The notes under the pieces were generated by a model that searched no databases, was not told where the DNA came from, and saw nothing but the letters and a program-made list of their open reading frames with translations. The position numbers and the translations under genes were made by a program. A DNA stretch of 64,000 nucleotides from a virus, in IMG/VR virus record IMGVR_UViG_3300024265_000033, positions 1-64,000 of that record; one strand, 5' to 3'. Shown in pieces: positions 5,069 through 57,784 of the stretch. Position 1 is the first letter of the stretch, and each line of letters opens with the position of its first letter.

Positions 5069-5398
5069 ATGCATGAAACCTTAGTAGCCTTTCTTTGCGC
5101 CGGAGCATTGATGCAAAATGTACATAACGGAGCTTGTAAAAGTGCGGCCACAGCTACTTCCATGACCGTGGAAATCAAACAAAATGTAGACAAGTTGGAA
5201 AACTACGTTCGAACAAAAGCTGAAAAAAAGTACAAAGAAATAGTCCCTAATTATATTACAGTCCCTATTGGTTTAGCTGCCGCGTATCAACGTGATAAAT
5301 ACCTCAAAACTGGGTTTCGCGTTAAAAAAGTAGTCGATAGAATTGAACTGAAGGGCGGCCCTGCAATAGCAGAAGTCTCTCTTAGATGGAATTTCTAA
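5069..5398 (+). CDS. lone plus-strand gene, unknown small protein
   Basis: 109 residues. AAAGGG lies 8 bases before the ATG. The N-terminus is weakly hydrophobic (TLVAFLCAGALMQNV, with two cysteines) and could be a signal or anchor. The rest is charged alpha/beta (VEIKQNVDKLENYVRTKAEK, then a beta-rich end). Its stop codon shares bases with the stop of the convergent minus-strand gene (TAA/TAG at 5395-5398), so there is no room for a normal terminator. It is a candidate moron-type insertion. Function unknown. Confidence 0.55.
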   Translation: MHETLVAFLCAGALMQNVHNGACKSAATATSMTVEIKQNVDKLENYVRTKAEKKYKEIVPNYITVPIGLAAAYQRDKYLKTGFRVKKVVDRIELKGGPAIAEVSLRWNF

Positions 5399-6183
5399 TC
5401 TTCGTCTTCGTCCCGAATTACATTCTTGGTTAAACGATTCCCTTTGAAATCTTTACGATCTACGAGATATTCTCTTTGGAGAACCCATTGCTCATTCATA
5501 TGAACCATTTCCACGTTCTTATCTCTTCGTCCAACTTGGACAAATCGGTTGACGTGCAAGGCTTCTATTGCGCGAAACTGCACTTTACAATCATAGTTGA
5601 GTGAGTAGATAACGCCTGCATCAGGACCTCTTCCCGGTAGCCAGCTTATTGAGCCGTTAACATCTAAGTTAAAATCATTGCCTTGGAAATATTCCTTGCC
5701 GGAGCTGTCCTTAACCAAATGCACGCAAATTGCCGGATATTTCAAAACGTCTATTGCGCCTTTTTGACGCTTGATTCTTTCTATAAAAATGTCGGTGAAG
5801 TCCAGTAATTCCACTAGAGTAAAGTATTGAAGCCCTATGTCTTGTAAGAATGTGGCTGTAGTTTTAGTGCCATCCACATAACCTTCTGGCCTGATTTTCT
5901 TCTCTAAAGACTGTTTGTCGAGTACAGCCATGGTTTGAATTGGTCGAGAATCCGTGAACCCACTGCCTTTGCAAAGTTGACAATCGATCTCATGTTCTCC
6001 GCCGTCGATAGATTTCACATTGGGGCAAAAGGTAGTTCTATAGACCTTGACGCGAATGCCTTGCTGATTAACTAGGGCATCGTATTTTCCCGGACGGAAA
6101 TTAAGACGATTCTTTTGGTCGGCTAGGTCTTTTTTTGGTATTTGGACTGACTTTTTTACATTCCAGCCGGGAGGTTTGCTCAT
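5395..6183 (-). CDS. putative neck/head-completion protein with a zinc-knuckle-like motif
   Basis: 262 residues. After a basic N-terminus a Cys pattern (TTFCPNV...IDCQLCKGSGF) resembles a zinc-binding knuckle. The remainder is beta-rich and ends in an acidic tail. GGAGG precedes the ATG. Its place between the internal coiled-coil protein and the gp10-like protein suggests a connector or neck role. No exact family is recognised. Confidence 0.6.
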   Translation of the reverse strand: MSKPPGWNVKKSVQIPKKDLADQKNRLNFRPGKYDALVNQQGIRVKVYRTTFCPNVKSIDGGEHEIDCQLCKGSGFTDSRPIQTMAVLDKQSLEKKIRPEGYVDGTKTTATFLQDIGLQYFTLVELLDFTDIFIERIKRQKGAIDVLKYPAICVHLVKDSSGKEYFQGNDFNLDVNGSISWLPGRGPDAGVIYSLNYDCKVQFRAIEALHVNRFVQVGRRDKNVEMVHMNEQWVLQREYLVDRKDFKGNRLTKNVIRDEDED

Positions 6184-6194
6184 TTAGATCCTCC

Positions 6195-6245
6195 TTATTC
6201 TTCAGCTTTTTTTGGGCTTTCGGCCTTACTTAAGACTTTTTTTTT
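6195..6245 (-). other. possible -1 frameshift site and extension
   Basis: On the minus strand GTA is followed by A9 (plus-strand T-run 6237-6245), so a slippery A-AAA-AAA heptamer lies just before the zero-frame stop. The -1 frame continues with K, E, A and S-rich codons like the rest of the protein and stops immediately before the GGAGG of the next gene. No strong downstream stem is obvious. A homopolymer assembly error would give the same picture. Confidence 0.4.
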
Positions 6246-7708
6246 ACGTCTACGCCAAGAATCTTGGCTGCAGCTTCCTCAGAAATACCCATATCTCGGG
6301 CAATTTGAGCTTCGTCAAAAGTCTTATGCGTGTAAGAGCCTCTTTGCTGAGGACTTTGGTTAGCTACGGCAGCGTTATAACGAGACTCGTCTAAATCGAC
6401 ACCTTTTTCGATCATGTCTTGAACATCGAGTTCTTTCTTTTCAGACTTTTCAATCTTCTCTTCAGACTTTTCGCCGTAATATGTGGCTCCTGATTTCTTA
6501 AAATCTTCTCGCTTCTCTTGATCCTTGATAATAGAATCAGCCACACTATAATGGCAGTTTTGACCCCTACGAGTAGATGCTGTTAGGAGACGCTCAGTAT
6601 TGCCGGGTCCCCATTTGACCGCTTTTTCAACGACTTCTTCAGTCTTTTCTTCCGCCTTAGCAATAAGATTTCCTTCGTTGTCCATTTCTTGGGTGTTAGC
6701 CTGCATTTTGGCCCTAAGAGCCTTCTCTTCTTCAGAGTGCTCGATTTTAGAGTTTGCTTCAGCGTTCAGCTCAGCTTCTGCGGCAGAGACTGCACCGGCT
6801 TTTTCAACGGTTTCAGATTTAGCCATTGGCTTTTTCTTTTGCCCTTTAGCCTTCTTCTTTTTGTCGGTATCGACCATTCTGCCAGCTTCTTCGGCTTCGT
6901 CCTTGTTGTCCCATGCTTTTGCAGCAATCTCGTGGTCGTAGCCTTTTTTCTTCATAGCTTCTAGGCATTTGTCTCGATGCATTCCGCGCTCTTTCATGCG
7001 GTCAACCATTTGCTTCATAAGGTAAGATTTTTCCATTGTGTCCTTTTCCTCTTCGGATTTAGATAGATCTCCGGAAGACTTAGAACCGTCTTTGGCATCG
7101 CCCGAGAGAGGCTCTTTAGCTTTATACTTGTTTTGGTAAGAATCTGCATTGCTTCCGCCTGCAGAGTTGCCATCAGAATTTTGATAATTTTCAGCGTTTG
7201 ATCCGCCCTTGGCGTTCTTGTCATCTTTTTTGTAAGGCTCGTCGTCTTTAGCCATTGGTTGATCGCCGGGTTCCTTTCCTTTGATTACTTGGCCTTCCCA
7301 AGCACCGTCTTTTCCAGTTCCACCTTGATGGTTCTGGGAAGCGTTGCGGGCGTCCATCATTTCTTCATCCCACTCGTCAACACCCTCTGAAGAGTTAGAT
7401 CGTTCAGAAGTGAGAGGCTCTTGTGCCTTTTGAGGTTTCTTGTTATCGTCTTTCCAAGCCTTTTGCTTGAGGTCAATTGCTTTCTCAAGAGCTTTGTTCA
7501 ATAAATCTAATTGTGTTTCGTTCAAAGTCGGAATAGCCTTCTTCAAACCTTCTTGTCCCAAAGCCTCAATAGTTTTTAGCAACTCGTCCATTTCTTTGTC
7601 CTCTTTCAATTTTTCGACAGTCTTAGGTTCGACGTTCTTTTTGAAGAATTTTTCCATTGATTCTGCGGCCTTAGCCATATTTTCTTCAATATTTTTAGCG
7701 TCTTTCAT
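6230..7708 (-). CDS. large charged low-complexity virion or scaffold-like protein
   Basis: 492 residues, strongly enriched in K, E, A and Q, largely predicted coiled coil or disordered. It contains a near-repeat (GGSNAENYQNSDGNSAGGSN) around residue 180 and ends in a compact segment (ARDMGISEEAAAKILGVDV). The zero-frame stop follows a run of nine A residues. A -1 shift on that run would extend the protein by VLSKAESPKKAEE to a stop at 6195, exactly up to the next ribosome site. It is probably an internal, scaffold or tape-like virion component. A promoter lies at 7732-7750. Confidence 0.6.
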   Translation of the reverse strand: MKDAKNIEENMAKAAESMEKFFKKNVEPKTVEKLKEDKEMDELLKTIEALGQEGLKKAIPTLNETQLDLLNKALEKAIDLKQKAWKDDNKKPQKAQEPLTSERSNSSEGVDEWDEEMMDARNASQNHQGGTGKDGAWEGQVIKGKEPGDQPMAKDDEPYKKDDKNAKGGSNAENYQNSDGNSAGGSNADSYQNKYKAKEPLSGDAKDGSKSSGDLSKSEEEKDTMEKSYLMKQMVDRMKERGMHRDKCLEAMKKKGYDHEIAAKAWDNKDEAEEAGRMVDTDKKKKAKGQKKKPMAKSETVEKAGAVSAAEAELNAEANSKIEHSEEEKALRAKMQANTQEMDNEGNLIAKAEEKTEEVVEKAVKWGPGNTERLLTASTRRGQNCHYSVADSIIKDQEKREDFKKSGATYYGEKSEEKIEKSEKKELDVQDMIEKGVDLDESRYNAAVANQSPQQRGSYTHKTFDEAQIARDMGISEEAAAKILGVDVKKKS

Positions 7709-7758: not shown

Positions 7759-10700
7759 TTATTGCAATTCTCCTGTAACCCGAACCCTCTTGATATATGA
7801 TACCATTTTCCACAGCATGTCCTTGGCTACAGCCACATAATACGGGTCGTTGCGAAACCTGTCGTCAATTGTGGAGTAGTCTTCTTCAGTATTCTTGACC
7901 ATGGACTTGATTAAGTCTTCCGGCACGAAAATTCCCGAGTATCGGCATTGATCTACGAGGTCTGAAACGCTCGAATTGGGCTCGTTCCAAGTGTACTCGA
8001 AGCCCTCCATGGACTTGGGAAGAGGTCTTTTTGCATAATCATTTCCCCCGCCTACGCCCCACATATAGAATCCAGCTACCCGGTTCTCTAGGTGATTTTT
8101 GAGCATGTGGTCATATTTACCCTCTTTGTGGGCAGCTTGAGTCTTCTCGGGATTCTTGATATCCCCGTCAAATAGCTCCTTGGCCTGTTTTTGAGTCAAA
8201 GTGAGGTTCGCGCACACGAGGCGGTCAAACATGGCTTTGAGGCTAGAAGTGACAGATCCCCAGTTTGTGGGGCTCAAAACGATAAATCCGTCAGCACGCT
8301 CTAGACGGTCATACACCTTTTCATCATGCATGATATCTCCGAGTTTTTCCCCGGCAGATCCCGGACCGTAGCAGGAGCATTTCCAGTGGCAATGATAGCC
8401 ATTGGCCGTACCTACACAATTCTTGCAATTTCGAATGATTCGGTCCTTGTCAGTGACTTCGAGATCCAACACGTCAATCTCAAGGCCCTCTGGGGCGGCT
8501 TTTCTGAGAGCTTCCACAAGCAACTTTCCTTTAGAGTCTTCGCCCGGGCAAGAGTTTTCGCTGCGTGCTCCGCCCTGAATGAGCATAATGCGTACTGGAG
8601 CAGAATTTGCTTGAATCAAGGCCTCATTCAGATCTATAAGGCTGAGAGCTTTTTTGATCTCATCTTTGGCAAAAATCTGATCCATGATCTTGACTATTTT
8701 TGACTTGTATTCTTTACTTCTAGAATCAGATACGGGAACCCAGCCCCCTGTAGTTTTTTCCAAGGCTCCGCTGAGTTGGGCATATAATTTAGTACGCTCG
8801 TCAAGTAGATCGCCCGTTTTTCCAGCTTTTCCCCCAGTGCCGTAAAGTTTTTGCGAAATATCGCTAATCTTTTCCCGGATTGCCTTAACCTTAGGATCTT
8901 TGACTTTCATGACATCTGGCATGAAAGTATCCATGAATTCTTTCGAAAGTTTCATTTTCTCGGCTCGGTCTAAAGAATAGACTTCAAAAGCTCTGGCAAA
9001 CACTTCTGTAGGCTCTAGGAGGTATCTCTTAAAAGATCGTTCCTCCGTTTGGGTGTAATAATCAGATCCCGTGACTATATCGTGCATTTCAACATACAAT
9101 TTTTGAAGTTCTGTGGGATTTTCTGCGAACTTAGCTTCTTTGAGCATTTCCCCATGACGCCCTCTTCGATCTTTTTCAGTCATAGCGTAATCAATTGCGT
9201 GTCCGATTTCGTGCATGACAGTTTTACTGGCCGCACTGACGTCTTTTAATGCTATGGTTTTTGTAGAATGACTATAAGTTCCGCGAGTAGTTTTTCCGGT
9301 TTTTGCCAAATTGACAGCCTTGAAATTAATAGGGGTTTTGAATTTAATCCCCATATCTTCAATCAATAAATTGCATTCATTTAAGGTTTTTTTGAAACTC
9401 TCTTTTACTTTTTTACTAGACTTTCCGAGATCTACAGAACCAATCATATTGGTTTTTTCGTTGGTTTTGAGATCCACACCTTCTGCGATGTCGCCGGATA
9501 GCTCGGGGTACTCCTTTAGGGCTTTGTCTGAGACGGGCAGGCCTGCCTTTAGGGCTGTTTTGTTTAGGAGATGATGTACGTCTTTGAATCTTTTATTATA
9601 AGTTCTCTTTTTTCTATTAAAATAGTCCGCGCTTTGCGGGCGATCTTTTATGAGTTGCTGAAGCATGGCCTCTTGGTATTCTTTTACAGACATCTTAGTG
9701 TGGTCTATTGCTTCGTTGCCATACACTTTAACTGCAGCTTTATATTTATATTCTAGCTCGGATGGCAGTTTTTTGGGCTCTTCTTTGGGTTTCGGAGCTT
9801 CTTTTTTAGGAGCTTCCGGCTTGGTAAAATCGTGCCCTTTATGCTCATCCGCATGTTCTGTGTGAGTGGGTTCTTTTTTGAACTGCCCCAGCAATTTGCC
9901 GTGATGGGCTCCGCCTACAGCTACCCAACCGTCAACATGTTTGACATACTTTCTACCGCTCCATACGCGCATAGTACCGACAGGCATGGGTTTCTTAGCT
10001 TTATTGAGTAATTCGATTAGTTTTTTTTTTTCTGACTGCTCAGACTTTTGAATGTAGATATTCAAGTCACCTTGAATCTTTGCAGTTTGAAGAATTTCTT
10101 TCAATTCAGAAACGCCATGGGCGTCTTGCTCTTCTCTAGGGCCTTCTTCTTTTGCTTCTTCTTTGGGCTTGCTGATAAAATTTTTGGCCATCAAAGCTGA
10201 AGTCATCGCAGGGAGGGTCATTTTTTTGACTTGAAATACTACTTGTCCGTAATCCCCGGAATACTCATCCATATTCTTGACATACCCATCGTAGATACCA
10301 TCATCTACTTGAGAGGCGATTAACACCCAAGGGCGATCTAGAGGAACTTCCCTTGGAACTTCTGCTAGTTCGAAATCTTTCAAACAATTGTCTAAGTATT
10401 CTAACCACGGACTCTCCTTCATGGCATCCACTTCGATAGCATGATTCGTAGTGTCTATATTGACGCCCGAAAGTTCAGATTCTCCGAGGGATTTTTTAAG
10501 AGCTTTGATCTTCTGTACGCTTCGAGACGTTATCTGGACGGGGCCTGCTAGTTTTTCAGCGGCTTTGATTTTGTCGTGAACCTGTCCCCAAGCACTGTCG
10601 AAAGTTCGGGCTTGTACTATGAATTCTTTCTGGCTCGTTCTATTCCCATTATATTTAATGGTTACAGTAACTTTGTAGTGGTGCCCGTTGACTCGACGCC

Positions 10701-11256
10701 AGTCTCCCGCACCGACTTTGATATACTTTCCGTCCGGAGATATAGTACCGACTGGAGCCTTCTTACCCTTTTCTAAAATATGTGGCAATTCTAAAGTATT
10801 TGCCTTTTTCAGGCCCATGAGTCGCATCTTAGCTTCTAGGAATGATTTCTGGCGATTTTCGCACATAGGTTCTGGTAATCGCTTTTCAATCGGGTACCAT
10901 CTCCATCTCCAAACTTCTTTGTCAGGATCGTGTTGAACGCCTATTTTTTGGTCATCCTTTAGGACAGCCACAAAGCAATGACATACCTTGCCGTTTTTTA
11001 GGTTCGTGATAGGAAGTTCTTTGAGCATTCCGGGAGTCAGTCGTAGGTTTGCTTCCTCGTAGGCCTCTCTGATTGCGGTCTGTTTGGGGGTTTCGCCTAG
11101 ATTCGCTCCGCCCGCAGGGGAGGTGTAGATATCATCTTCCTTGCGTTTTCCCATGAGGAAATGAGTCTTTTCTTTATTGACGACAACAACGGCAGAATAA
11201 AAGGGGGTGTCTTCCCCTTTTTTAAGCTGTTCTGTCAAATCGATAATCTTACTCAC
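7759..11256 (-). CDS. 1165-residue fusion: Nudix hydrolase, zinc metallopeptidase, flavodoxin-like reductase
   Basis: Residues 15-145 hold a Nudix domain with a near-complete Nudix box (G49 x5 E55 x7 REAYEEAN, the usual Gly replaced by Asn), predicted to cleave nucleoside-diphosphate-linked compounds. Two short related modules follow (APVGTISPDGKYIKV near 170 and MPVGTMRVWSGRKYV near 425), then a coiled linker. Around residue 681 there is a zincin motif HEIGH. Residues about 885-1080 look like an NAD(P)H-dependent FMN reductase/flavodoxin (start RIMLIQGGARS, core PTNWGSVTSSLKAMFDR), with an inserted Cys cluster (NCKNCVGTANGYHCHWKCSC). It lies among connector and neck genes, so it may be a virion-associated or ejected protein. 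Catalysis is inferred from motifs only. Confidence 0.75.
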   Translation of the reverse strand: MSKIIDLTEQLKKGEDTPFYSAVVVVNKEKTHFLMGKRKEDDIYTSPAGGANLGETPKQTAIREAYEEANLRLTPGMLKELPITNLKNGKVCHCFVAVLKDDQKIGVQHDPDKEVWRWRWYPIEKRLPEPMCENRQKSFLEAKMRLMGLKKANTLELPHILEKGKKAPVGTISPDGKYIKVGAGDWRRVNGHHYKVTVTIKYNGNRTSQKEFIVQARTFDSAWGQVHDKIKAAEKLAGPVQITSRSVQKIKALKKSLGESELSGVNIDTTNHAIEVDAMKESPWLEYLDNCLKDFELAEVPREVPLDRPWVLIASQVDDGIYDGYVKNMDEYSGDYGQVVFQVKKMTLPAMTSALMAKNFISKPKEEAKEEGPREEQDAHGVSELKEILQTAKIQGDLNIYIQKSEQSEKKKLIELLNKAKKPMPVGTMRVWSGRKYVKHVDGWVAVGGAHHGKLLGQFKKEPTHTEHADEHKGHDFTKPEAPKKEAPKPKEEPKKLPSELEYKYKAAVKVYGNEAIDHTKMSVKEYQEAMLQQLIKDRPQSADYFNRKKRTYNKRFKDVHHLLNKTALKAGLPVSDKALKEYPELSGDIAEGVDLKTNEKTNMIGSVDLGKSSKKVKESFKKTLNECNLLIEDMGIKFKTPINFKAVNLAKTGKTTRGTYSHSTKTIALKDVSAASKTVMHEIGHAIDYAMTEKDRRGRHGEMLKEAKFAENPTELQKLYVEMHDIVTGSDYYTQTEERSFKRYLLEPTEVFARAFEVYSLDRAEKMKLSKEFMDTFMPDVMKVKDPKVKAIREKISDISQKLYGTGGKAGKTGDLLDERTKLYAQLSGALEKTTGGWVPVSDSRSKEYKSKIVKIMDQIFAKDEIKKALSLIDLNEALIQANSAPVRIMLIQGGARSENSCPGEDSKGKLLVEALRKAAPEGLEIDVLDLEVTDKDRIIRNCKNCVGTANGYHCHWKCSCYGPGSAGEKLGDIMHDEKVYDRLERADGFIVLSPTNWGSVTSSLKAMFDRLVCANLTLTQKQAKELFDGDIKNPEKTQAAHKEGKYDHMLKNHLENRVAGFYMWGVGGGNDYAKRPLPKSMEGFEYTWNEPNSSVSDLVDQCRYSGIFVPEDLIKSMVKNTEEDYSTIDDRFRNDPYYVAVAKDMLWKMVSYIKRVRVTGELQ

Positions 11257-11265
11257 TTCCGCTCC

Positions 11266-12120
11266 TTAAATGATATTGATTCTTTGGCCTTGGTAGTAAT
11301 CCCTAAGCTTCCGTACCAAACCTCTGTTTGGGGAATTGATGCTTTCTCCAAATAGTTGCTTTTGAAACTCCTTAACCTTTGCAGAATAACCATGGTTCTC
11401 TGCGGAAGAGGTCGTATTGACATTCTGAGAAAGCCCGTCCAAAGACAAACTTTCGCTGGCAATACCCGCTCCAACAATCAAGTCTCCGGCGATATTCAAA
11501 GCAAAGATAGCCGCCATGAGGCCTATAGCTGCATTGATATCTTTAGGTATCTTACCATCATCGAATCCAGAAATATAGTCAATTTGCCAAACTAATGGCA
11601 CATGTCCATTATTCCTAAAGATTTCAGGGAAATATTGGCCCCCTGCATCAACTGCAAATTGAGAAAGAGTCCCGGCAGTAGGGATGAGCCTAAGGATACC
11701 ATCGTGTCGCTGAAGTTTGTACCATTCAGGAGGATAAGAGAGGATGTTTGCATTAGGATAAACGGCTCGAACTTCTTTCACTTGAATAACAGGGATGTTG
11801 TTCAATTGAAAATAGCCCCACTGCCAGTAGTCGTTTGATTGGAAATCTTTTTCTTCCGCGCCTCCGCCCGGGATAATATCACCTTCGGGAGTGAATGAGG
11901 GTCCAATATGCTCTTGGCGGACGATGGAAATGTCCAAATCGTGCTCAAGTTCCGAGACAGCCATATCAATATAATCTTGAAGAGTATCATCGGGCATTTC
12001 ATTGCCATCATTGTCAACGATCTCAACCCCAAACAAAAATCTGGCTCTTAGCTTTTTAGGCGTAATTAGAGGCTCAGTTCTTTGAATAATTCGATTATCT
12101 CTTACAATACCTTCTGACAT
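11266..12120 (-). CDS. putative head-tail connector/adaptor protein
   Basis: 284 residues. An early helical segment (DDTLQDYIDMAVSELEHDLD) is typical of head-tail adaptor proteins, which dock below the portal. A beta-rich middle (IPVIQVKEVRAVYPNANIL) and a C-terminal helix (GLVRKLRDYYQGQRINII) follow. It starts the neck gene block just before the fusion protein. The family match is by eye. Confidence 0.55.
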   Translation of the reverse strand: MSEGIVRDNRIIQRTEPLITPKKLRARFLFGVEIVDNDGNEMPDDTLQDYIDMAVSELEHDLDISIVRQEHIGPSFTPEGDIIPGGGAEEKDFQSNDYWQWGYFQLNNIPVIQVKEVRAVYPNANILSYPPEWYKLQRHDGILRLIPTAGTLSQFAVDAGGQYFPEIFRNNGHVPLVWQIDYISGFDDGKIPKDINAAIGLMAAIFALNIAGDLIVGAGIASESLSLDGLSQNVNTTSSAENHGYSAKVKEFQKQLFGESINSPNRGLVRKLRDYYQGQRINII

Positions 12121-21811: not shown

Positions 21812-22468
21812 TCACGTCTCCCAGTTTATCGGGTTCATTCCCGAAGACTTCAAATGCATGTTTATTTTAGAGAAATGTCCGCATTTGAAAAAACCTCTAG
21901 ATGCAGACAGGGGGGATGGGTGCGCAGCCGTCAAAACTATGTGACGTTTTCCATCTATTAGCTTTTGCTTTTTTTTGGCCCAATTACCCCAAAGTACGAA
22001 TATAATTGAATTTTTTTGGTCACTAACCGCTTTTATTACCTTATCTGTGAAAATTTCCCATCCTACGCCCCCGTGCGACCCCGGTCGGCCCGCTTCTACC
22101 GTGAGACATGTGTTGAGTAGGAGAACGCCTTGTTCGGCCCACGGAGTGAGATCTCCGGACGTACAGAGGATGCCTGTGTCATTTTGGAGTTCTTTGAAAA
22201 TATTTCGCAAAGAGGACGGAAGGGGTGTGTCCGGATTGACAGAAAAACAAAGCCCATTCGCTTGCGCTTCTCCGTGGTAGGGGTCTTGACCGATAATGAC
22301 CACTTTTACTCTATCTAGGGGTGTTAGCTCTAAAGCCGTAAATATCAAATCAATATCGGGACAAATAGTAAAATCTTGACCCCGTTCTTCTAAATACCCC
22401 ATGATTTTTTGCATATAGCGTTTCCCAAACTCGCATTTCATAAAGTATTCCCATGATTTAGCCTGCAT
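21812..22468 (-). CDS. ung: uracil-DNA glycosylase, family 1
   Basis: 218 residues, normal length for Ung. The water-activating motif GQDPYH lies near residue 68 and the minor-groove loop motif HPSPLSASRGF near residue 192. The SLRNIFKEL segment and the GVLLLNTCLTVE strand are also typical. It excises uracil from DNA in base-excision repair. Phage copies may repair uracil in newly made DNA or act against uracil-containing competitors. The ribosome site GGGG lies 4 bases upstream. The start overlaps the response-regulator gene by 11 bases. Confidence 0.95.
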   Translation of the reverse strand: MQAKSWEYFMKCEFGKRYMQKIMGYLEERGQDFTICPDIDLIFTALELTPLDRVKVVIIGQDPYHGEAQANGLCFSVNPDTPLPSSLRNIFKELQNDTGILCTSGDLTPWAEQGVLLLNTCLTVEAGRPGSHGGVGWEIFTDKVIKAVSDQKNSIIFVLWGNWAKKKQKLIDGKRHIVLTAAHPSPLSASRGFFKCGHFSKINMHLKSSGMNPINWET

Positions 22469-23297
22469 TTTGCCCCTTTCTCCAGCGTGCCATAATCTCT
22501 TTTAGATCCAAATCTTGATTAAATAGCTTTGCTTTTGATTTGATTTCCTCCCATTTTTCCTTTCGCTTAGTCTCATTATCCGCCAAAAACATCTCATCAA
22601 TCATGCCGTCTAATCGGTCTTGGATTTTCCGGTGTATGATTTTTTCGAATGGCATTTTTTGGCCAGAATAGTCTTTTAAGATATTTTCGGAAGGAACCCC
22701 GAATTTCGAATCAATCTCCCTTTTCATTTTTCTGATTATGGCCGGATCATAATTCACAATATCGTCAGATTTTTCAATAATCCCGGAAGAACCTTTTTGA
22801 AACACCGGTACTGAAGTAGGGGTATCAAAGCCTCCTGAAAAAATAATCGACTTGGTATCTGCGTAATTTCTCTTCAAGAACTCAACCAACTTCAGACCAT
22901 TAGGCCCGGGCATGGAATAATCAATTACAGCCAAATCCACAATGGTTTCAGTCATGTCAAGCCGTCGTAGTTGCGCCATAGCCTCTTTTACCGAACCGGA
23001 CTCAAAAACTTGATATCCTTTGGTTTCAAAAGAAAATCTGAGAACCTCCCGTAAAGCCGCATCATCGTCTACAATCAAAACCGTTTTTTTCCGCTTTTCT
23101 CGTAATTGCTTGAAATGGACCTTACCACTTTCTAGATCTTCAATTATTTCGATGGCATTGTTTATGTTGAAGCCCCGTTTTGTTAGCCACTCGGTCATGG
23201 CTGGGGATTCCGTCCAATTTCTGATTAGGGGTATAATCTCGGAAGTTTCTATCCCGACTTCCTGAAATTTCCCCAGTTCTAGATATACCCTTAACAT
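22458..23297 (-). CDS. response-regulator-like protein with receiver domain
   Basis: 279 residues. An unfamiliar N-terminal 70 residues precede a complete receiver domain: acidic pair in VLIVDDDAALREVL (about D78, D79), phosphoacceptor Asp in VIDYSMPGPNG (about D126), Ser in IIFSGGF (about S154) and Lys in IIEKSDD (about K176). The C-terminal 90 residues are helical with no recognised DNA-binding fold. It should accept phosphate from a histidine kinase, of host or other origin. A sigma70-like promoter stands at 23331-23359. The HisKA-like mini-protein at 58007 may be a partner. Confidence 0.85.
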   Translation of the reverse strand: MLRVYLELGKFQEVGIETSEIIPLIRNWTESPAMTEWLTKRGFNINNAIEIIEDLESGKVHFKQLREKRKKTVLIVDDDAALREVLRFSFETKGYQVFESGSVKEAMAQLRRLDMTETIVDLAVIDYSMPGPNGLKLVEFLKRNYADTKSIIFSGGFDTPTSVPVFQKGSSGIIEKSDDIVNYDPAIIRKMKREIDSKFGVPSENILKDYSGQKMPFEKIIHRKIQDRLDGMIDEMFLADNETKRKEKWEEIKSKAKLFNQDLDLKEIMARWRKGQNAG

Positions 23298-25120: not shown

Positions 25121-26539
25121 TTATGCAGATTGGATTCCGATATTCTTCACGATTGCGTGTTTCCTTGGAGCCTGAATCACAATCATTCCATATAGCAACT
25201 GGAGCCATCTGTATGAAGTGTCAGTAACAGCAAGGTCATACTTAATCATGCTTCCGAGTTGTCGGAAGACGAGAGTATCAGGATCGTGCATAAGCAAGTA
25301 TGCGCTTCCTAGACCGGGTTCCTTCTCATTGAAGTCGATATCATGAGTTGAGCCAGATCCGCCGGGAGCGACTCGACCAATGAATTCAGCTTCGCCTGTT
25401 TGGTCATCTTTCGCAGTACGGAAGATGTTCAGGTAAAGAGGGCTGCCTGTGTAGGTGATATCCGAAGTTACTTTGTCGCCTGCAGAAACTGCAATCGCGG
25501 CAAGAGCACTCGCTTCAGTTTCTCCGTCTGCGTAAACAGAAGAGACTCTGTAGCCATAAGTTCCGGCATCATCAGCCGTGAACTTCGAATCTCCATCAGA
25601 AGGCGATGCTTCTGAAGCAGTCGTTGGAGCACCTGTGGCTGAAATCGCAGAAGCCAAAGGCTCTCTACGAGGACGGTTGAAAAGGTTCGGCTTAAATCGG
25701 AAGTTCAAAGAACCTACGAATTCAGGAACCAAATAACCAGCCGCAGTTCGATCTCCGGGCCTAGTTCGCTCTTTAGCGTAGAACGCCTTAGAGAATCGGC
25801 TATGGATATCAGTGGACAAGTACATGTCCATTGGCATACCGAAGTTGTTTAGAGCTGTAAGAACGGCGTCCTCACAAGTATCTTCATCAAGAACGTCTCC
25901 GCCTCTGTCGAGGATTACGCTATCAGAAGAACCGGCTCCATTAAAACCTTGGAATGCGGTTGATTTGAACTTAGAATTTGACTCGTTTGCACGAATTTGC
26001 TTTTCAATTCCATCATACTCAAGAGCATTGATGTCAGAGTCAGCATCAAACATGGCGCGTTCGTTTCGAGCCAAAAGTTCGATTGTTTTGTTTTTTACTT
26101 CGCGTGCAACAACTGGACCGTGAGCCGCTTGGATCAAGGTAAGGTTGTGCTGAACTTGCCCTTGAGTACCTAGGTACTTAACGATAGCAACTTCACGATT
26201 GTACTGAGCGTCAGTCGCCTGAGGCACTCCGCCGATTTGGAAGAACACTGGAACTTCCGAACCGTAAGAGTTCTGGACGTTGAACTCATGCACAGTCTGC
26301 GTTTGTTTTTCTTTGATAATATCTTTCCACAGTTTGAGATGTTCCATGCCGTGGGTAACGAGCTTCAAAGTTCGGTCGAGGTCCTCAACTGCGAGAGCTG
26401 CACCGCCAGAGAGATCTCCGGGTAGGGTTGTAGCATATTCGCCGCCAATTGACAACGCCTTCTGAAGGTCATTGACCTCTTCCGCGCTATGGACTCCAAA
26501 ACCTGAGAGGGCTGGATTTCCACTTCCTAAATCATTCAT
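25121..26539 (-). CDS. major capsid protein
   Basis: 472 residues, following the prohead protease and a scaffold-like gene and ending at a strong terminator, the canonical order. Residues 27-59 contain a segment (ALSIGGEYATTLPGDLSGGA) nearly repeated in the C-terminal part of the prohead protease (293-325), a candidate cleavage or targeting element. The body has the E-loop to P-domain style of HK97-fold proteins (RNERAMFDADSDIN, DVLDEDTCEDAVLTALNNFG). An FnIII/Ig-like insertion (about 305-405, TYGYRVSSVYADGETEAS) interrupts the C-terminal half. The end VIQAPRKHAIVKNIG is typical of the A-domain. Confidence 0.85.
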   Translation of the reverse strand: MNDLGSGNPALSGFGVHSAEEVNDLQKALSIGGEYATTLPGDLSGGAALAVEDLDRTLKLVTHGMEHLKLWKDIIKEKQTQTVHEFNVQNSYGSEVPVFFQIGGVPQATDAQYNREVAIVKYLGTQGQVQHNLTLIQAAHGPVVAREVKNKTIELLARNERAMFDADSDINALEYDGIEKQIRANESNSKFKSTAFQGFNGAGSSDSVILDRGGDVLDEDTCEDAVLTALNNFGMPMDMYLSTDIHSRFSKAFYAKERTRPGDRTAAGYLVPEFVGSLNFRFKPNLFNRPRREPLASAISATGAPTTASEASPSDGDSKFTADDAGTYGYRVSSVYADGETEASALAAIAVSAGDKVTSDITYTGSPLYLNIFRTAKDDQTGEAEFIGRVAPGGSGSTHDIDFNEKEPGLGSAYLLMHDPDTLVFRQLGSMIKYDLAVTDTSYRWLQLLYGMIVIQAPRKHAIVKNIGIQSA

Positions 26540-29888: not shown

Positions 29889-30608
29889 TTATTTGATTTT
29901 ATTGCAAAAAAATTCGACTAATCGAGCGGTATGTGCAGCCGTAGCCTGAGAGGTGCCAGACATCATTACTTTATCTGCGTGCCTATTAAAGCTGTAAACT
30001 TCATGTCCGATCTCCCAAACCATTGAATTCTTTCCGTGATTTGAAGTAGGTGCCCGTTCTCGGGTTGGCATAATAGATCCTACTGCTATAATGTTAGACT
30101 CGGCGTAGGCCGCTGGGTAATAGGGCGGTTCGTTGAAAATACTAGCTTTGTCGTTGCCCGCCGCTGCCACAATTGTCGTTTTGTTTCTATTTAGGATTTT
30201 TACCAGATCGTGCTCTTCTGCATAATAAGCCCTTCCGCCTGCGGAATAATTAACAATATCGACATTTTGCCGAATAGCTTGCTTGAGGCATTTGAATTCC
30301 GTTTTGAAGGAACCCTCTTTTTTACCTTTTTTGAAATCGACGCAGGGGATTAATTGGACCCCGGGGCAAGCCTTTTCTGCTATGATTCCGAATATATGGG
30401 TTCCGTGGCCATGCCGATCATTGAGAGCTTTTGACTTCAGATCTCTCTTGGAGAGAAATTTTCGATATTTTAGTCGTACTCTTTGAGAAACTCCTGTATC
30501 AGCGATCAAAACTTTTAATGTAGGTGTAGTTCGGCTCCCTTCCTGTGAAAGTGCTCTAGGGACGCCTACTACTGCGAGGGCTGTTAATATGGCTAAAAGC
30601 CATTTCAC
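29889..30608 (-). CDS. secreted subtilisin-like serine protease
   Basis: 239 residues with an N-terminal signal peptide (WLLAILTALAVVGVPRALSQ) and a complete S8 triad: Asp in VLIADTGVS (about D37), His in GHGTHIFG (about H68) and Ser in MSGTSQATAAH (about S220), with the oxyanion Asn in AAAGNDKAS. There is almost no prodomain. It is probably exported to the periplasm. Its start overlaps the stop of the membrane ClpP/SppA-like protease (ATGA-type), so the two are likely made together. The target is unknown; it could process envelope or superinfection-related proteins. Confidence 0.85.
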   Translation of the reverse strand: MKWLLAILTALAVVGVPRALSQEGSRTTPTLKVLIADTGVSQRVRLKYRKFLSKRDLKSKALNDRHGHGTHIFGIIAEKACPGVQLIPCVDFKKGKKEGSFKTEFKCLKQAIRQNVDIVNYSAGGRAYYAEEHDLVKILNRNKTTIVAAAGNDKASIFNEPPYYPAAYAESNIIAVGSIMPTRERAPTSNHGKNSMVWEIGHEVYSFNRHADKVMMSGTSQATAAHTARLVEFFCNKIK

Positions 30609-31624
30609 TTCTGCACCTCCGTGTAGGACCCATTAAGGATGTATTCTTTCACGAAACGTCTCTTGTGGTTAAAAAGAGAATCTACATATTTTAGCAATCT
30701 ATCTCTTTTCGTAGAATCGTTCGTCAGAAATCTGGCTTTTCCTATTTTTACAGGATAAGAAATCAGGGGACATTTAGAAAAGTGGGCATCTATAGACCCG
30801 AAAAAAGAACTTATAGTAACAATTTCAGTACCTTTCAAATCCTTGCCGCACCTTACGAGGGCTACTCTGTCGGCTGATTTTTCTACTACCGCGTCCGATC
30901 CGTCTACCCAGTATTCGTCTCTAATGAGGTCTTGGTACTTTTTCAGTGGCATTTTGAGTCGTTTCGCTACCTTGGAGTCCATAATTTTTAGCTGGCGCAG
31001 AATCCAATTGGTTCTTGTCAGGTATTCTCCTTTGCCGTCGCTGCCTATTTCGCCTCCCATGCCGCCTAGACGGGCTCTGTGAGACATTAGGGTTCCGGAA
31101 GGAGTGATGATTCTCTCGTCCAAATTTTGTACCATGTGATAGGCCATCGAAGCAGAAAACAGAGTAATGGTCTTTACTTTCTGGGGGATTGCCTTAGCCG
31201 TGTCAATAAATACGTTCCCGGCATCAATACTGCCTCCCGGGGAGTCAAGTACCAAATAGATAGTGGCATTTCGGGGAAGCCTGTAACTCATATTGAGAAG
31301 CTTCCTTTGGAGTTTTGATACGGATTTGGACGTTACAACTTCCCGAAAAGAAAGAGTATTCTTCTTTCCTAAGACAATTAGAGGCAATTTTTTATTTGGA
31401 TTTGGAAAAGGTAGTATGGAGACTTTGTCCCCGACTTTGGAACTCTGAGCTATCGCCTCTGGCGCAGTCATCGTGGAATACGTTTCGACACTATACTCCC
31501 CCGGGGCTTCCGGAAGGGCTATCGGTACCTCATTCTGGGGAAAAATCTGCCCCATGCCTACAAAAATTGCTACAAAAGCCGCCAATGCTACGACTCCTTT
31601 TGCGATAATTCCTAGAAAATTCAT
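30605..31624 (-). CDS. membrane-anchored ClpP/SppA-like serine protease
   Basis: 339 residues. An N-terminal membrane helix (IIAKGVVALAAFVAIFVGMG) precedes a ClpP/crotonase-fold protease domain: YLVLDSPGGSIDAG (oxyanion Gly-Gly), nucleophile Ser in FSASMAYHMV, His in LMSHRARLGG, and a C-terminal acidic segment (RDEYWVDGSDAV) like the ClpP Asp/SppA region. The active site should face the periplasm. Close to SppA/NfeD-type membrane ClpP relatives. Adjacent to a secreted subtilase and downstream of a cytosolic ClpP-like gene. Confidence 0.75.
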   Translation of the reverse strand: MNFLGIIAKGVVALAAFVAIFVGMGQIFPQNEVPIALPEAPGEYSVETYSTMTAPEAIAQSSKVGDKVSILPFPNPNKKLPLIVLGKKNTLSFREVVTSKSVSKLQRKLLNMSYRLPRNATIYLVLDSPGGSIDAGNVFIDTAKAIPQKVKTITLFSASMAYHMVQNLDERIITPSGTLMSHRARLGGMGGEIGSDGKGEYLTRTNWILRQLKIMDSKVAKRLKMPLKKYQDLIRDEYWVDGSDAVVEKSADRVALVRCGKDLKGTEIVTISSFFGSIDAHFSKCPLISYPVKIGKARFLTNDSTKRDRLLKYVDSLFNHKRRFVKEYILNGSYTEVQK

Positions 31625-54696: not shown

Positions 54697-54725
54697 AGTA
54701 TCTCAAACCCGGTGCAAATAGTCAA
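54697..54725 (-). promoter_or_regulatory. sigma70-like promoter
   Basis: Minus strand: TTGACT at 54720-54725, 17 bp spacer, GATACT at 54697-54702, just upstream of the ATG at 54674 and inside the end of the ligase gene. Confidence 0.6.
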
Positions 54726-55801
54726 GTTAAAATGTTGCCTGTAGGCCTAATTTGTTTCTTAATATATTCATGCACTTGACTCATATTCCTATCGAGCCTT
54801 ACAAAAGCGGCTGCAGGATGCTTTAATTTGAGAGTCTTATTTTTGATGCCCAGTCCTATCTCTCGTTTTATGTGAGACTCCTCAGATACCTCTAAATCGA
54901 GTACCAAACGATAATCCGCATCTATTTCACACCACAATGCAATGTGGCGGCTCTCAAGCGTCGCGGCCATGTCATCGAACTGTTTGCGAAATTCTTCCGG
55001 GATCTCTTGTAATGTGTCTTGACTGACTTTGCCTCTTTCCATAGTCTCCCACAGAGCCAAGGGAGAGGCTCCTGAAAGGATGCGAGCTATTCTAAGATAG
55101 GCTTTACTCTTGATCTTTACGCGCTCCCCATTATTAAAGAGCACGACAAAGCCCTCTTCATCAGCCCCCATAGTTTGTTGTTTGGCTATCATCTCTTCAA
55201 TTGAGATATCGAGCTTCTTTACCAACTCAAGACCTGTGAGTTCTGCAGCCAGCATCAATTGTGGCCAAGCATATTCTATCCCAGTCGAGGTGTCGTACAT
55301 TGCGAGCAGGACAAGCTTTCGCTCCGTTCCATAATCTAAAATGATTCTATTCTCTGGATAAATGATCTCAACCAAGTATGTGGCTTCCTTGACAAATTTA
55401 TCAGTATTATATAAAGCCAGCATGCCATGAGCCTCTAGGGCTTGATCTGATGAGAAACTACCTCTGGTATTGACGCGCCACATGTCATTGTGATAATAGA
55501 CAATGCCTAAAGAGCCGTCCGCTTTGTCGCACACTCGATATTGCGACTTATCTTTTTTGATAAGGTTCCGCCACTTGGATGCTGCGAGTTCTTCCCAATT
55601 GAAGAACTTAGGGAATGCCTTAGCTACAACTCGGCCTGTGTTTTTGTCGTACACCGTGCCCCTTGCGTTCTTCGTGTACTTATTCCATTTCTTTTCATAA
55701 GTGCAATGGTCTGTATAATTGTATAGCACTAGGTCGCCGTCTTCTACCTTTCGCAAAAAGCCATCGGCTGCCAATTCATCAAGCCTTTTAATATGATCCA
55801 T
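54722..55801 (-). CDS. RNA ligase (T4 Rnl1-like)
   Basis: 359 residues from the ATG at 55801. All nucleotidyltransferase motifs are present: motif Ia PKFFNW, active-site Lys in CDKADGSLGIVYYH (about K93), motif III YLVEIIYPENRIIL, motif IV DEEGFVV and motif V VKIKSKAYL. It adenylates itself and seals 5'-phosphate/3'-OH RNA ends. It lies next to an NTase and HD-Pnk, the minimal set for repairing cut tRNA or mRNA, as in T4 defence against anticodon nucleases. Confidence 0.9.
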   Translation of the reverse strand: MDHIKRLDELAADGFLRKVEDGDLVLYNYTDHCTYEKKWNKYTKNARGTVYDKNTGRVVAKAFPKFFNWEELAASKWRNLIKKDKSQYRVCDKADGSLGIVYYHNDMWRVNTRGSFSSDQALEAHGMLALYNTDKFVKEATYLVEIIYPENRIILDYGTERKLVLLAMYDTSTGIEYAWPQLMLAAELTGLELVKKLDISIEEMIAKQQTMGADEEGFVVLFNNGERVKIKSKAYLRIARILSGASPLALWETMERGKVSQDTLQEIPEEFRKQFDDMAATLESRHIALWCEIDADYRLVLDLEVSEESHIKREIGLGIKNKTLKLKHPAAAFVRLDRNMSQVHEYIKKQIRPTGNILT

Positions 55802-56780
55802 TGATAACCCCCAAATGAATTCGTGCAAGGACATCGTCCAATTTGTGTCGATTGAGCTTGGCGGGCAAACTACTGGAGAGCCGTGCCCGTTCTAAATCTA
55901 TCAAATTACTCTCTATGAGAACTGCTACCTCTTTGTAATCAATCAATCCTTGTTTGATATCGGTGACTAATTTCCTATCGGATTCTTTGAGAGGTAGCGT
56001 GATGTGATTAGTCTCCAAAAGCTCTACTCCCTGAATACTGACTCTTACTGCGTGACTCAAAGCTTTCCAATCAATGCCATTGTTGTTTTTGGCCTCTCTC
56101 GCTCTGTGTCCATAATTCTTGTAGATCTTCTTTAGAATCTCCAACACATAAATGAAGTTGCAGTGGTAGTCGAACTTTTTACCTAGGATATCCATGGCAG
56201 GGGTCAAAGGACCTCCCATCCCTTTGGTAGTATCCAGTTGTATAAAATGGATGTGATCGAAATCCTTTAATGCTTCTTGGATCTCATACCAAGCGTGTTT
56301 GAGTTTGGCTCCTTGAAAATCAAATCCTTTTTGAACTTCTTTGAGAACCGTAATACATTTGGATAGTTCTCCCATCCGAGAGCCTTTGATGCCGTATTTG
56401 TTTGCTTGCTGTCGGGCGTACCCAACCATAGCACTCACTTGACTGCTTAGAAAGAAACCTCTATCCCCACGCAGCTCTTTCCAAAGACGGCTCTGCTCTA
56501 GTATGAATTCCTCGGGAGTGAAGAGTAGCTCAAGTGCTGCAGTGTCTCCTTTCTCAAGCATCTTTAAGAACTTCTTGAAGCTGTAGAATTCCACATCAAC
56601 GTCGTCCTTTGAATTCTTGAGATTGTCATCCCCTGTGGAAGATCGTCGCGTGTCCTTGTAATTGCCTATTAGAATTTCTCTAGCCTCGGGTAGATATACG
56701 CCCTTGAAATCCTTATCGGACGTCGGAGTGTTGGTACCAAACAAATGTGAGCCTGCTACTGCTTTGACTAATATTTTCAT
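55788..56780 (-). CDS. nucleotidyltransferase-like protein (T4 NrdC.11 type)
   Basis: 330 residues from the ATG at 56780 (GGGAG 6 bases upstream). The Pol-beta NTase signature VAGSHLFGTNTPTSDKDFKG sits at the N-terminus (the G-S...S-D-x-D pattern); the C-terminal two-thirds are helical. Similar proteins (T4 NrdC.11) are linked to RNA end processing. The start overlaps the HD-Pnk stop (ATGA). Confidence 0.75.
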   Translation of the reverse strand: MKILVKAVAGSHLFGTNTPTSDKDFKGVYLPEAREILIGNYKDTRRSSTGDDNLKNSKDDVDVEFYSFKKFLKMLEKGDTAALELLFTPEEFILEQSRLWKELRGDRGFFLSSQVSAMVGYARQQANKYGIKGSRMGELSKCITVLKEVQKGFDFQGAKLKHAWYEIQEALKDFDHIHFIQLDTTKGMGGPLTPAMDILGKKFDYHCNFIYVLEILKKIYKNYGHRAREAKNNNGIDWKALSHAVRVSIQGVELLETNHITLPLKESDRKLVTDIKQGLIDYKEVAVLIESNLIDLERARLSSSLPAKLNRHKLDDVLARIHLGVINGSY

Positions 56781-57784
56781 GATAACTCCCATACGATTTC
56801 GTCGAACTCGTCGTACAGTGGTGGATAAAAGCTTTTAATCATAAACTCGAATACGTCCGGGGTAAGCACCTTACCAGTCCTCTCGGCGTTACGCTGATGG
56901 ATGACTGACATTGGAGGCAACAATACTACTGCCTTCTTGTGCCAACTCTTATCTAATTGACTGAGTATTCGCCTACGACTCTTCTTACTCATGTGAGTCA
57001 TGTCAGCTACAAAGTTCTTATGGGCCTTAACCAATTCTGTTTTTCTTATTTGCTCTAACCTAGTCACAGCCTTTTGATCCACACTTGCCCACTTTTGAGT
57101 GTATGTGTCGCCTGTGCCCAGCTCTTCTACAAATGAATCGCGTGATAGTACCGCGTGGTCTGGAAGGTTTTGCTTTATGTATGTAGATTTGCCGCTACAA
57201 GGCAGGCCAATCATGACTACGGCTTCTCTAACCTTAGACACATCGAATATTCTATTGGGAGGGGCTGGAAATATAGGCACTACTTCTTCGTGCGAAAAGA
57301 ATCGGCCCTCTCTGTCTGCGGTGGATAATGCTATCAGTTTGTCATACAACTCAGGATTCGCTACCATTCGCTCAGATAACTGTTTAGGAGTGAGTTTGAA
57401 GGGCTCCGTGTGCATAGCAATCATTTGAAATATAAGTCTACTCTCGTAAGGAGGTACATCAAGATCCTTCAAGATATCTAGAGCCATGAATGCAGACACC
57501 GCTTCGTGACTGAAAAACCTTACTCGCTTCGTCTTCTCAACCGCCTCTCTACACAGAGGCTTTCCAATATCATGCAGCAAGGCTGCTAGCTGCACACACT
57601 CGTCGTATTGTTCGGCCATTTTACATACCATCATTGTATGAGTCCACACATCGCCCTCTAAATGATAGGGATTGAGACTGAAGTCGCCCTCGGGATAATC
57701 GAAATGATGATCGCTCTCTTGCATGTGGGACACATTCTCTGGGTAGTTCTCTTGGAACCATACTACAAGCTTATTCATTGTCAT
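56777..57784 (-). CDS. HD-Pnk: HD phosphoesterase fused to 5'-OH polynucleotide kinase
   Basis: 335 residues. Residues 20-180 hold an HD phosphohydrolase domain (HTMMVCKMAE, then LAALLHDIGKPLCREAVE; H and HD pairs). Residues 180-335 are a P-loop kinase (VMIGLPCSGKSTYIKQNL, SRDSFVEEL), the 5'-kinase module of T4 Pnkp. In characterised HD-Pnk enzymes the HD part removes 2',3'-cyclic phosphate and the kinase adds 5'-phosphate, healing both RNA ends. Here it replaces T4's HAD-type Pnkp. It forms a repair set with the NTase and ligase. Confidence 0.9.
   Translation of the reverse strand: MTMNKLVVWFQENYPENVSHMQESDHHFDYPEGDFSLNPYHLEGDVWTHTMMVCKMAEQYDECVQLAALLHDIGKPLCREAVEKTKRVRFFSHEAVSAFMALDILKDLDVPPYESRLIFQMIAMHTEPFKLTPKQLSERMVANPELYDKLIALSTADREGRFFSHEEVVPIFPAPPNRIFDVSKVREAVVMIGLPCSGKSTYIKQNLPDHAVLSRDSFVEELGTGDTYTQKWASVDQKAVTRLEQIRKTELVKAHKNFVADMTHMSKKSRRRILSQLDKSWHKKAVVLLPPMSVIHQRNAERTGKVLTPDVFEFMIKSFYPPLYDEFDEIVWELS

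Follow-up and report, generated by a model that had tools for sequence, protein, structure and literature searches.

Polyvalent proteins, in which unrelated enzyme domains are combined in one chain, are encoded beside the virion genes of portal-terminase phages (Iyer et al. 2017, PMC5512222). Autoprocessing by an MPTase domain has been proposed to free the units of such proteins, and virion proteins with an MPTase are in some cases processed before packaging, as P1 DdrB is, and in others packaged whole, as N4 RNAP is (PMC5512222). Nudix domains are also tied to virion or cargo proteins, as in the T4 NudE-like Nudix-head protein fusions; where the partner is MuF, portal or head protease, the fusions are likely packaged and have been proposed to degrade ADPr-type signals (PMC9503650). 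The internal proteins of T4 are packaged cargo against host defences (PMC9026906, PMC3012670) and include the anti-restriction head protein IPI (PMC3012670). For IPIII, the first 10 residues suffice for packaging, positions 4 and 7 acting in targeting and positions 8 and 10 in processing, and gp21 cleaves after L/I-x-E (PMC9026906). Here we compare with these systems a protein, P0001, encoded in a 64,000-nucleotide stretch of viral DNA (the window) from an IMG/VR record of 121 kb. By its portal, sheath and adaptor the virus is SPO1-like.

The P0001 gene and its predicted domains

The coordinates of P0001, its domains and its flanking genes are collected in Table 1. The gene is a single unbroken frame of 1165 codons, as the initial annotation had it, with a GTG at 11256, the N-terminus MSKIIDLTEQ and a Shine-Dalgarno-like AAGGAG just 5' of the start; the adaptor gene ends 9 bases ahead of the GTG. 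Neither a full-length relative nor an orthologue with the trio of Nudix, zincin and flavodoxin domains was found in the viral-contig database, the phage database or 47 related records, the last of which gave Nudix matches only. This result, the metagenomic source of the record and a GC3 that is unequal along the gene (0.39 in the zincin part, 0.54 in the flavodoxin part) would fit an assembly chimera of separate genes, a possibility that the initial annotation had itself named. However, the frame is without a break and has a ribosome-binding site, the overall GC is close to that of the adjacent genes, both flanks keep SPO1 synteny and relatives carry similar cargo in the same place (see below). 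We therefore regard a chimera as extremely unlikely.

Table 1. Positions in the window of P0001, its predicted features and its flanking genes
Feature	P0001 residues	Position	Strand	Basis
SPO1 gp6.4 orthologue (phrog_1004), right anchor		5395..6183	minus	
Lys/Glu-rich protein of 492 aa, encoded second in the slot insert		6230..7708	minus	
Polyvalent protein P0001, 1165 aa, GTG start		7759..11256	minus	ORF call
Predicted flavodoxin-like FMN reductase domain	885-1165	7762..8604	minus	PF03358; AF2; Foldseek
Cys cluster CxxC-x8-CHxxCxC	944-962	8371..8427	minus	five Cys invariant, 19 rows
Predicted zincin peptidase with LPD1-type C-terminal part	about 560-800	8857..9579	minus	hhalign; invariant residues
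Glu751, presumed third zinc ligand, within EVFARAFE	751	9004..9006	minus	invariant column
HEIGH zinc-binding motif	682-686	9199..9213	minus	pattern match
Lys/Pro/Glu-rich linker, probably disordered	about 455-497	9766..9894	minus	sequence; low pLDDT
Linker module copy 2 (PVGTMRVWSGRKYVKHVDGWVAV)	425-447	9916..9984	minus	held-out HMM E 1.1e-4
Linker module copy 1 (PVGTISPDGKYIKVGAGDWRRV)	168-189	10690..10755	minus	HMM that included this copy
Nudix domain	21-135	10852..11196	minus	PF00293 E 1.8e-12
Nudix box, final G replaced by N	49-71	11044..11112	minus	pattern match
Head-tail adaptor, SPO1 gp6.3 orthologue (phrog_772), left anchor		11266..12120	minus	

The Nudix domain (PF00293) scored 47.9 bits against a curated Pfam cut-off of 21.1. 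Its box, GX5EX7RExxEE from residue 49, departs from the consensus GX5EX7REUXEEXGU only in having Asn for the last Gly, and it retains the catalytic Arg and Glu. The domain is 39% identical (E 5.6e-22) to the N-terminal Nudix domain of the cargo ORF in a related record, G018, and 30% identical to the Nudix domain of the Myxococcus phage Mx1 protein described below. By family score and box, the Nudix box that the initial annotation placed at about residues 49-71 is confirmed.

Pfam matches to the zincin stretch were all below cut-off (LPD1, E 0.0027; ATLF, E 0.0064; SprT-like, E 0.066) and coincided on one stretch. Profile-profile alignment with hhalign matched residues 540-830 to a phage zincin profile with a probability of 95.4 and an E of 1.9e-8, running through HExGHAxD and E[MV]FARAFE. 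In the 18-row alignment of phage zincins, where a P0001 residue is the alignment number plus 149, every invariant residue of the signature HExxH..D..Y..ExxAR.FE is kept; these include H682, E683, H686, D689, Y745, E751, A754, R755, F757 and E758. A segment that is conserved upstream of HExxH in the relatives is mostly missing. A tblastn search of the phage database with the zincin region alone gave no match, and the bridge to the phage zincins is a relative protein in record G001. Its zincin has matches among the polyvalent proteins of many other phages, including one that carries a DdrB-like ParB domain. For the 731-residue middle region the AF2 model was poor (pLDDT 47.9), and Foldseek gave no significant fold match. 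In the domain check proposed by the initial annotation, the Nudix and FMN_red domains exceed their Pfam cut-offs and the zincin is recovered by hhalign, with a poor structural model. The HEIGH motif, expected at about residue 681, starts at 682, and with Glu751 as the third ligand and all signature residues in place P0001 is predicted to carry a zincin peptidase.

The C-terminal domain matched FMN_red (PF03358) over residues 904-1015 with 44 bits against a cut-off of 24 (E 2.1e-11), and its AF2 model was good (pLDDT 80.4, pTM 0.84). Foldseek with this model retrieved the FMN-dependent NAD(P)H reductases AzoR, WrbA, ArsH and SsuE, and also RosB, at E values of about 1e-6, so that a flavodoxin-like fold is shared; the P0001 domain is 9-16% identical to these proteins and has in addition a Cys cluster and a C-terminal region that they lack. 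Large phages encode solo proteins of ~285 aa (in one 735-kb phage and 18 IMG/VR records, 8 of these >100 kb) with which residues 885-1165 share 35-44% identity, and the five Cys, C944, C947, C956, C960 and C962, are invariant among relatives in an alignment of 19 rows. The FMN reductase-like domain with a Cys cluster, initially placed at about 885-1080, thus holds as a five-Cys flavodoxin-like domain of the FMN reductase type, a predicted enzyme.

Archaeal-type iron-sulfur flavoproteins have a compact CX2CX2CX4-7C motif, and this assignment was rejected for P0001, whose motif is CX2CX8CX3CXC. Plasmid matches to the domain proved to be solo flavodoxins of the Rhizobium type, on a distant branch of the tree, and the match in MT837942 is a bacterial-type fragment rather than phage cargo. 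A scan of genome contigs gave 3 distant matches only, and its pattern would not have picked up flavodoxins of the Rhizobium type. One solo flavodoxin, in L029 (IMGVR_UViG_3300012000_002412, 8735-10681), has an intein-like insert exactly within the conserved Cys cluster. Inteins favour essential active-site motifs, and the insert is thus a hint that the cluster matters.

The gp6.3-gp6.4 slot and the linker modules

The gene order of SPO1, 6.3-6.4-7.1-7.2-8.1-sheath-tube, is the same in the window, with P0001 and the 492-aa gene inserted between 6.3 and 6.4; the neck-block setting proposed for P0001 is thereby borne out. A relative of the 492-aa protein was looked for and none was found. The gp6.3-gp6.4 gap was measured in the 30 related records that have the two anchor genes, some of them near-duplicates, so that the counts are not of independent lineages: it is at most 110 nt in 22 records, 306-705 nt in three and >1 kb in five. 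The slot is therefore empty in most relatives and the P0001 gene is accessory. In Mx1 the slot holds a protein of 1479 aa, which matches GNAT, ART-PolyVal, Nudix and, weakly, YunG, and a 619-aa GNAT/kinase-like protein. In G001 (65.9 kb), which of the longer records is nearest to the window by portal, it holds genes for a homing endonuclease, a SAM-lyase-like protein of 979 aa and a 629-aa zincin protein with an unambiguous LPD1 match (E 1e-14), and in G048 a 10.9 kb insert encodes a 1080-aa protein with zincin and LPD1 and a transglycosylase. The slots of G005 and G014 encode short Lys-rich proteins whose effector nature is not obvious. The Nudix cargo of G013 and G018 lies directly after the portal, outside the slot. 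Since the large inserts hold effector-like genes and most relatives have none, the slot reads as an accessory cargo site in SPO1-like phages.

These data also bear on whether the slot has a connector-building role, with P0001 as an assembly factor whose zincin would be a head or neck maturation protease and whose Nudix and redox parts would act late within the cell or be relics. The position of P0001 among neck genes and the short Lys-rich proteins of G005 and G014 are consistent with such a role, as is the finding that encapsidation of the N4 virion RNAP requires the region bearing its MPTase (PMC5512222). However, the absence of the insert from 22 of the 30 relatives means that it is dispensable for assembly, a ClpP-like protease is encoded elsewhere in the same virus, upstream of its capsid gene, and the slot cargo elsewhere is effector-like (ART, GNAT, SAM lyase, transglycosylase). 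We consider the assembly role unlikely, and prefer to read P0001 as cargo.

A module of ~25 residues, (P/N/A)(V/I)G(T/E)xRxWxGxxYxKxxxGW, occurs in two copies in P0001. An HMM built without P0001 finds copy 2, which supports the two related linker modules of the initial annotation, and also finds the module at the N-terminus of two zincin proteins, L131 and L132, and in a portal-adjacent ORF, L049. A wider HMM that included these three gave no further strong copies; L056 has a weaker one, and one protein of Chryseobacterium phage MA9V-3 has two. By these matches, the module recurs in other cargo of the SPO1-like virus group. A second module type, HKYIRREGxxGNYxYxY, takes an equivalent position in G001, G013, G018 and others. 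Both types tend to lie either between domains or close to the start of a cargo ORF, and P0001 may therefore represent several cargo units joined as one gene. The slot proteins in G005 and G014 contain the sequence P[VI]GTIRNGRKK...W, which resembles the first module by eye, but the HMM gave it no support.

Several other genes were noted. The 979-aa slot protein of G001 (L122, 4288-7227, minus strand) matches an S-adenosylmethionine lyase family (PF23780, E 1e-6), bears both linker module types and is a candidate virion-borne anti-restriction enzyme. Downstream of the portal, the ORFs at 3546-5126 in L049 and 3981-5395 in L056 start with linker module A, followed by a P-loop ATPase-like sequence (GSGGVGKT). 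In the window, a 109-aa ORF on the plus strand (5069-5398) opposes the minus-strand reading of its block and is all that occupies the interval from the gp6.4 orthologue to that of gp7.1. The remaining window genes noted are all on the minus strand. A ClpP-like protease (30605-31624, E 6e-10) is probably the prohead protease, and the product of 25121-26539 has a weak match to an SU10-type major capsid protein. Uracil-DNA glycosylase-like (GQDPYHG) and receiver-domain-like proteins were recognized by eye amid the structural genes (21812-22468 and 22458-23297). A T4 RNA ligase 1-like gene (PF09511, E 2.4e-20) lies beside an RlaP gene (E 5.9e-16) at 54722-56792, giving this virus an RNA-repair pair. 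A PADLOC search for defence systems returned nothing.

Capsid-targeting leaders on some of the solo flavodoxins

Six of the 19 solo flavodoxins, among them one beginning MRSFLEYIAEA, carry the N-terminal pattern M-x-x-[FY]-x-x-[FY]-[IL]-x-E, in the exact register of T4-type capsid targeting. The pattern was found in 5 of 4235 other ORFs, all five within loci of the same solo-flavodoxin set. The leader-bearing proteins fall in two separate, well-supported clades, and two of their records, G056 and G059, encode a T4-type S77 prohead protease. Given the T4 register, the two clades and the protease in two records, some members of the five-Cys flavodoxin family are very probably carried in the head. 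A T4-type leader was not found at the N-terminus of P0001, and the case for its packaging therefore rests on its class, its slot and its relatives.

Nudix and FMN reductase genes are common in ordinary metabolism and 13 of the 19 solo flavodoxins are without a leader, as would be expected if P0001 were a late accessory enzyme that stays in the cytosol and never enters the virion, serving for example nucleotide pool hygiene and redox balance at replication. Against this, P0001 joins these parts to a polyvalent zincin and has linker modules in common with other cargo, its gene lies among virion genes, and leaders are present in two clades of its solo relatives. A purely cytosolic role is thus judged quite unlikely.

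Proposed function and comparison with known systems

P0001 combines at least two unrelated domains with the zincin/LPD repertoire and a virion-gene setting in a portal-terminase phage. On its sequence we place it in the polyvalent protein class, because of its zincin-LPD1 homology and because its slot is shared with polyvalent cargo in Mx1, G001 and G048. The class, the shared cargo slot and the leaders on the solo flavodoxins support its reading as a packaged effector, and suggest that it is brought into the host cell to disarm the host. Overall, P0001 is probably a virion-borne polyvalent effector, ejected with the DNA, whose domains are freed by the zincin and act on nucleotide signals and redox state.

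We infer the packaging, ejection, cleavage, substrates and all activities of P0001, which could be ordered as follows. P0001 would be produced late, together with the head and neck genes, and, following established polyvalent biology, would be loaded into the virion and enter the host with the DNA. The zincin would then cleave P0001 near the linkers, giving free Nudix and flavodoxin units, or might cleave a host protein. The steps that follow have less support. The Nudix unit would hydrolyse an NDP-X compound, for which ADP-ribose, NAD-derived defence signals and NAD-capped RNA are the likeliest candidates; these substrates are guesses from knowledge of the families. The role of the flavodoxin unit is the least certain part. 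Its modelled fold suggests that it uses NAD(P)H to reduce a target of the host or of the phage, and with FMN and NAD(P)H it may alter the redox state of a host target or guard the incoming complex. More tentatively, and with rather more doubt than confidence, we suggest that large phages deliver the five-Cys flavoenzyme into the host at the start of infection, T4-type phages by a leader and SPO1-like phages by polyvalent fusion, and that the linker modules are general cargo tags.

If this is true, effectors delivered by the virion would have a redox arm, the five-Cys flavoenzyme, which is described in no paper that we found. The slot between the gp6.3 and gp6.4 orthologues of SPO1-like phages gives a precise place where effector-like genes gather, and the linker module is a possible handle for finding further cargo. 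Since internal head proteins include the anti-restriction protein IPI of T4, cargo found by slot or module may lead to counter-defence functions.

The initial annotation knew of no described protein with this trio, a claim that stands for the addition of the flavodoxin, for which no precedent was found, and is narrowed by the comparable Nudix polyvalents of Mx1, G013 and G018 and by the published Nudix fusions. The word flavodoxin is absent from PMC5512222, and flavodoxin cargo is unmentioned in surveys including PMC9503650. No paper was found that treats polyvalent proteins, flavodoxin and phage together, which is weak evidence of absence as most subscription journals lay outside the search. 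P0001 shares with the polyvalent proteins of PMC5512222 its unrelated enzyme domains in one chain, its zincin with an LPD1-type part and its place beside virion genes, and adds the five-Cys flavodoxin. The Mx1 protein (WNM70333.1, annotated as a NUDIX hydrolase) is likewise polyvalent, has a Nudix domain and occupies the same slot after a gp6.3-type adaptor, but it has GNAT, ART-PolyVal and weak YunG matches and none to a zincin or a flavodoxin. The Nudix domains of PMC9503650 are fused to MuF, portal and head protease, whereas that of P0001 is fused to a zincin and a flavodoxin. The T4 internal proteins have a capsid-targeting leader, which P0001 lacks and some of its solo flavodoxin relatives share. 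Thus the polyvalent class and Nudix-bearing cargo are known, and the added five-Cys flavodoxin is new by the literature that could be searched; with signs of packaging by two unrelated ways, P0001 points to an apparently unreported kind of virion cargo, a packaged redox enzyme.
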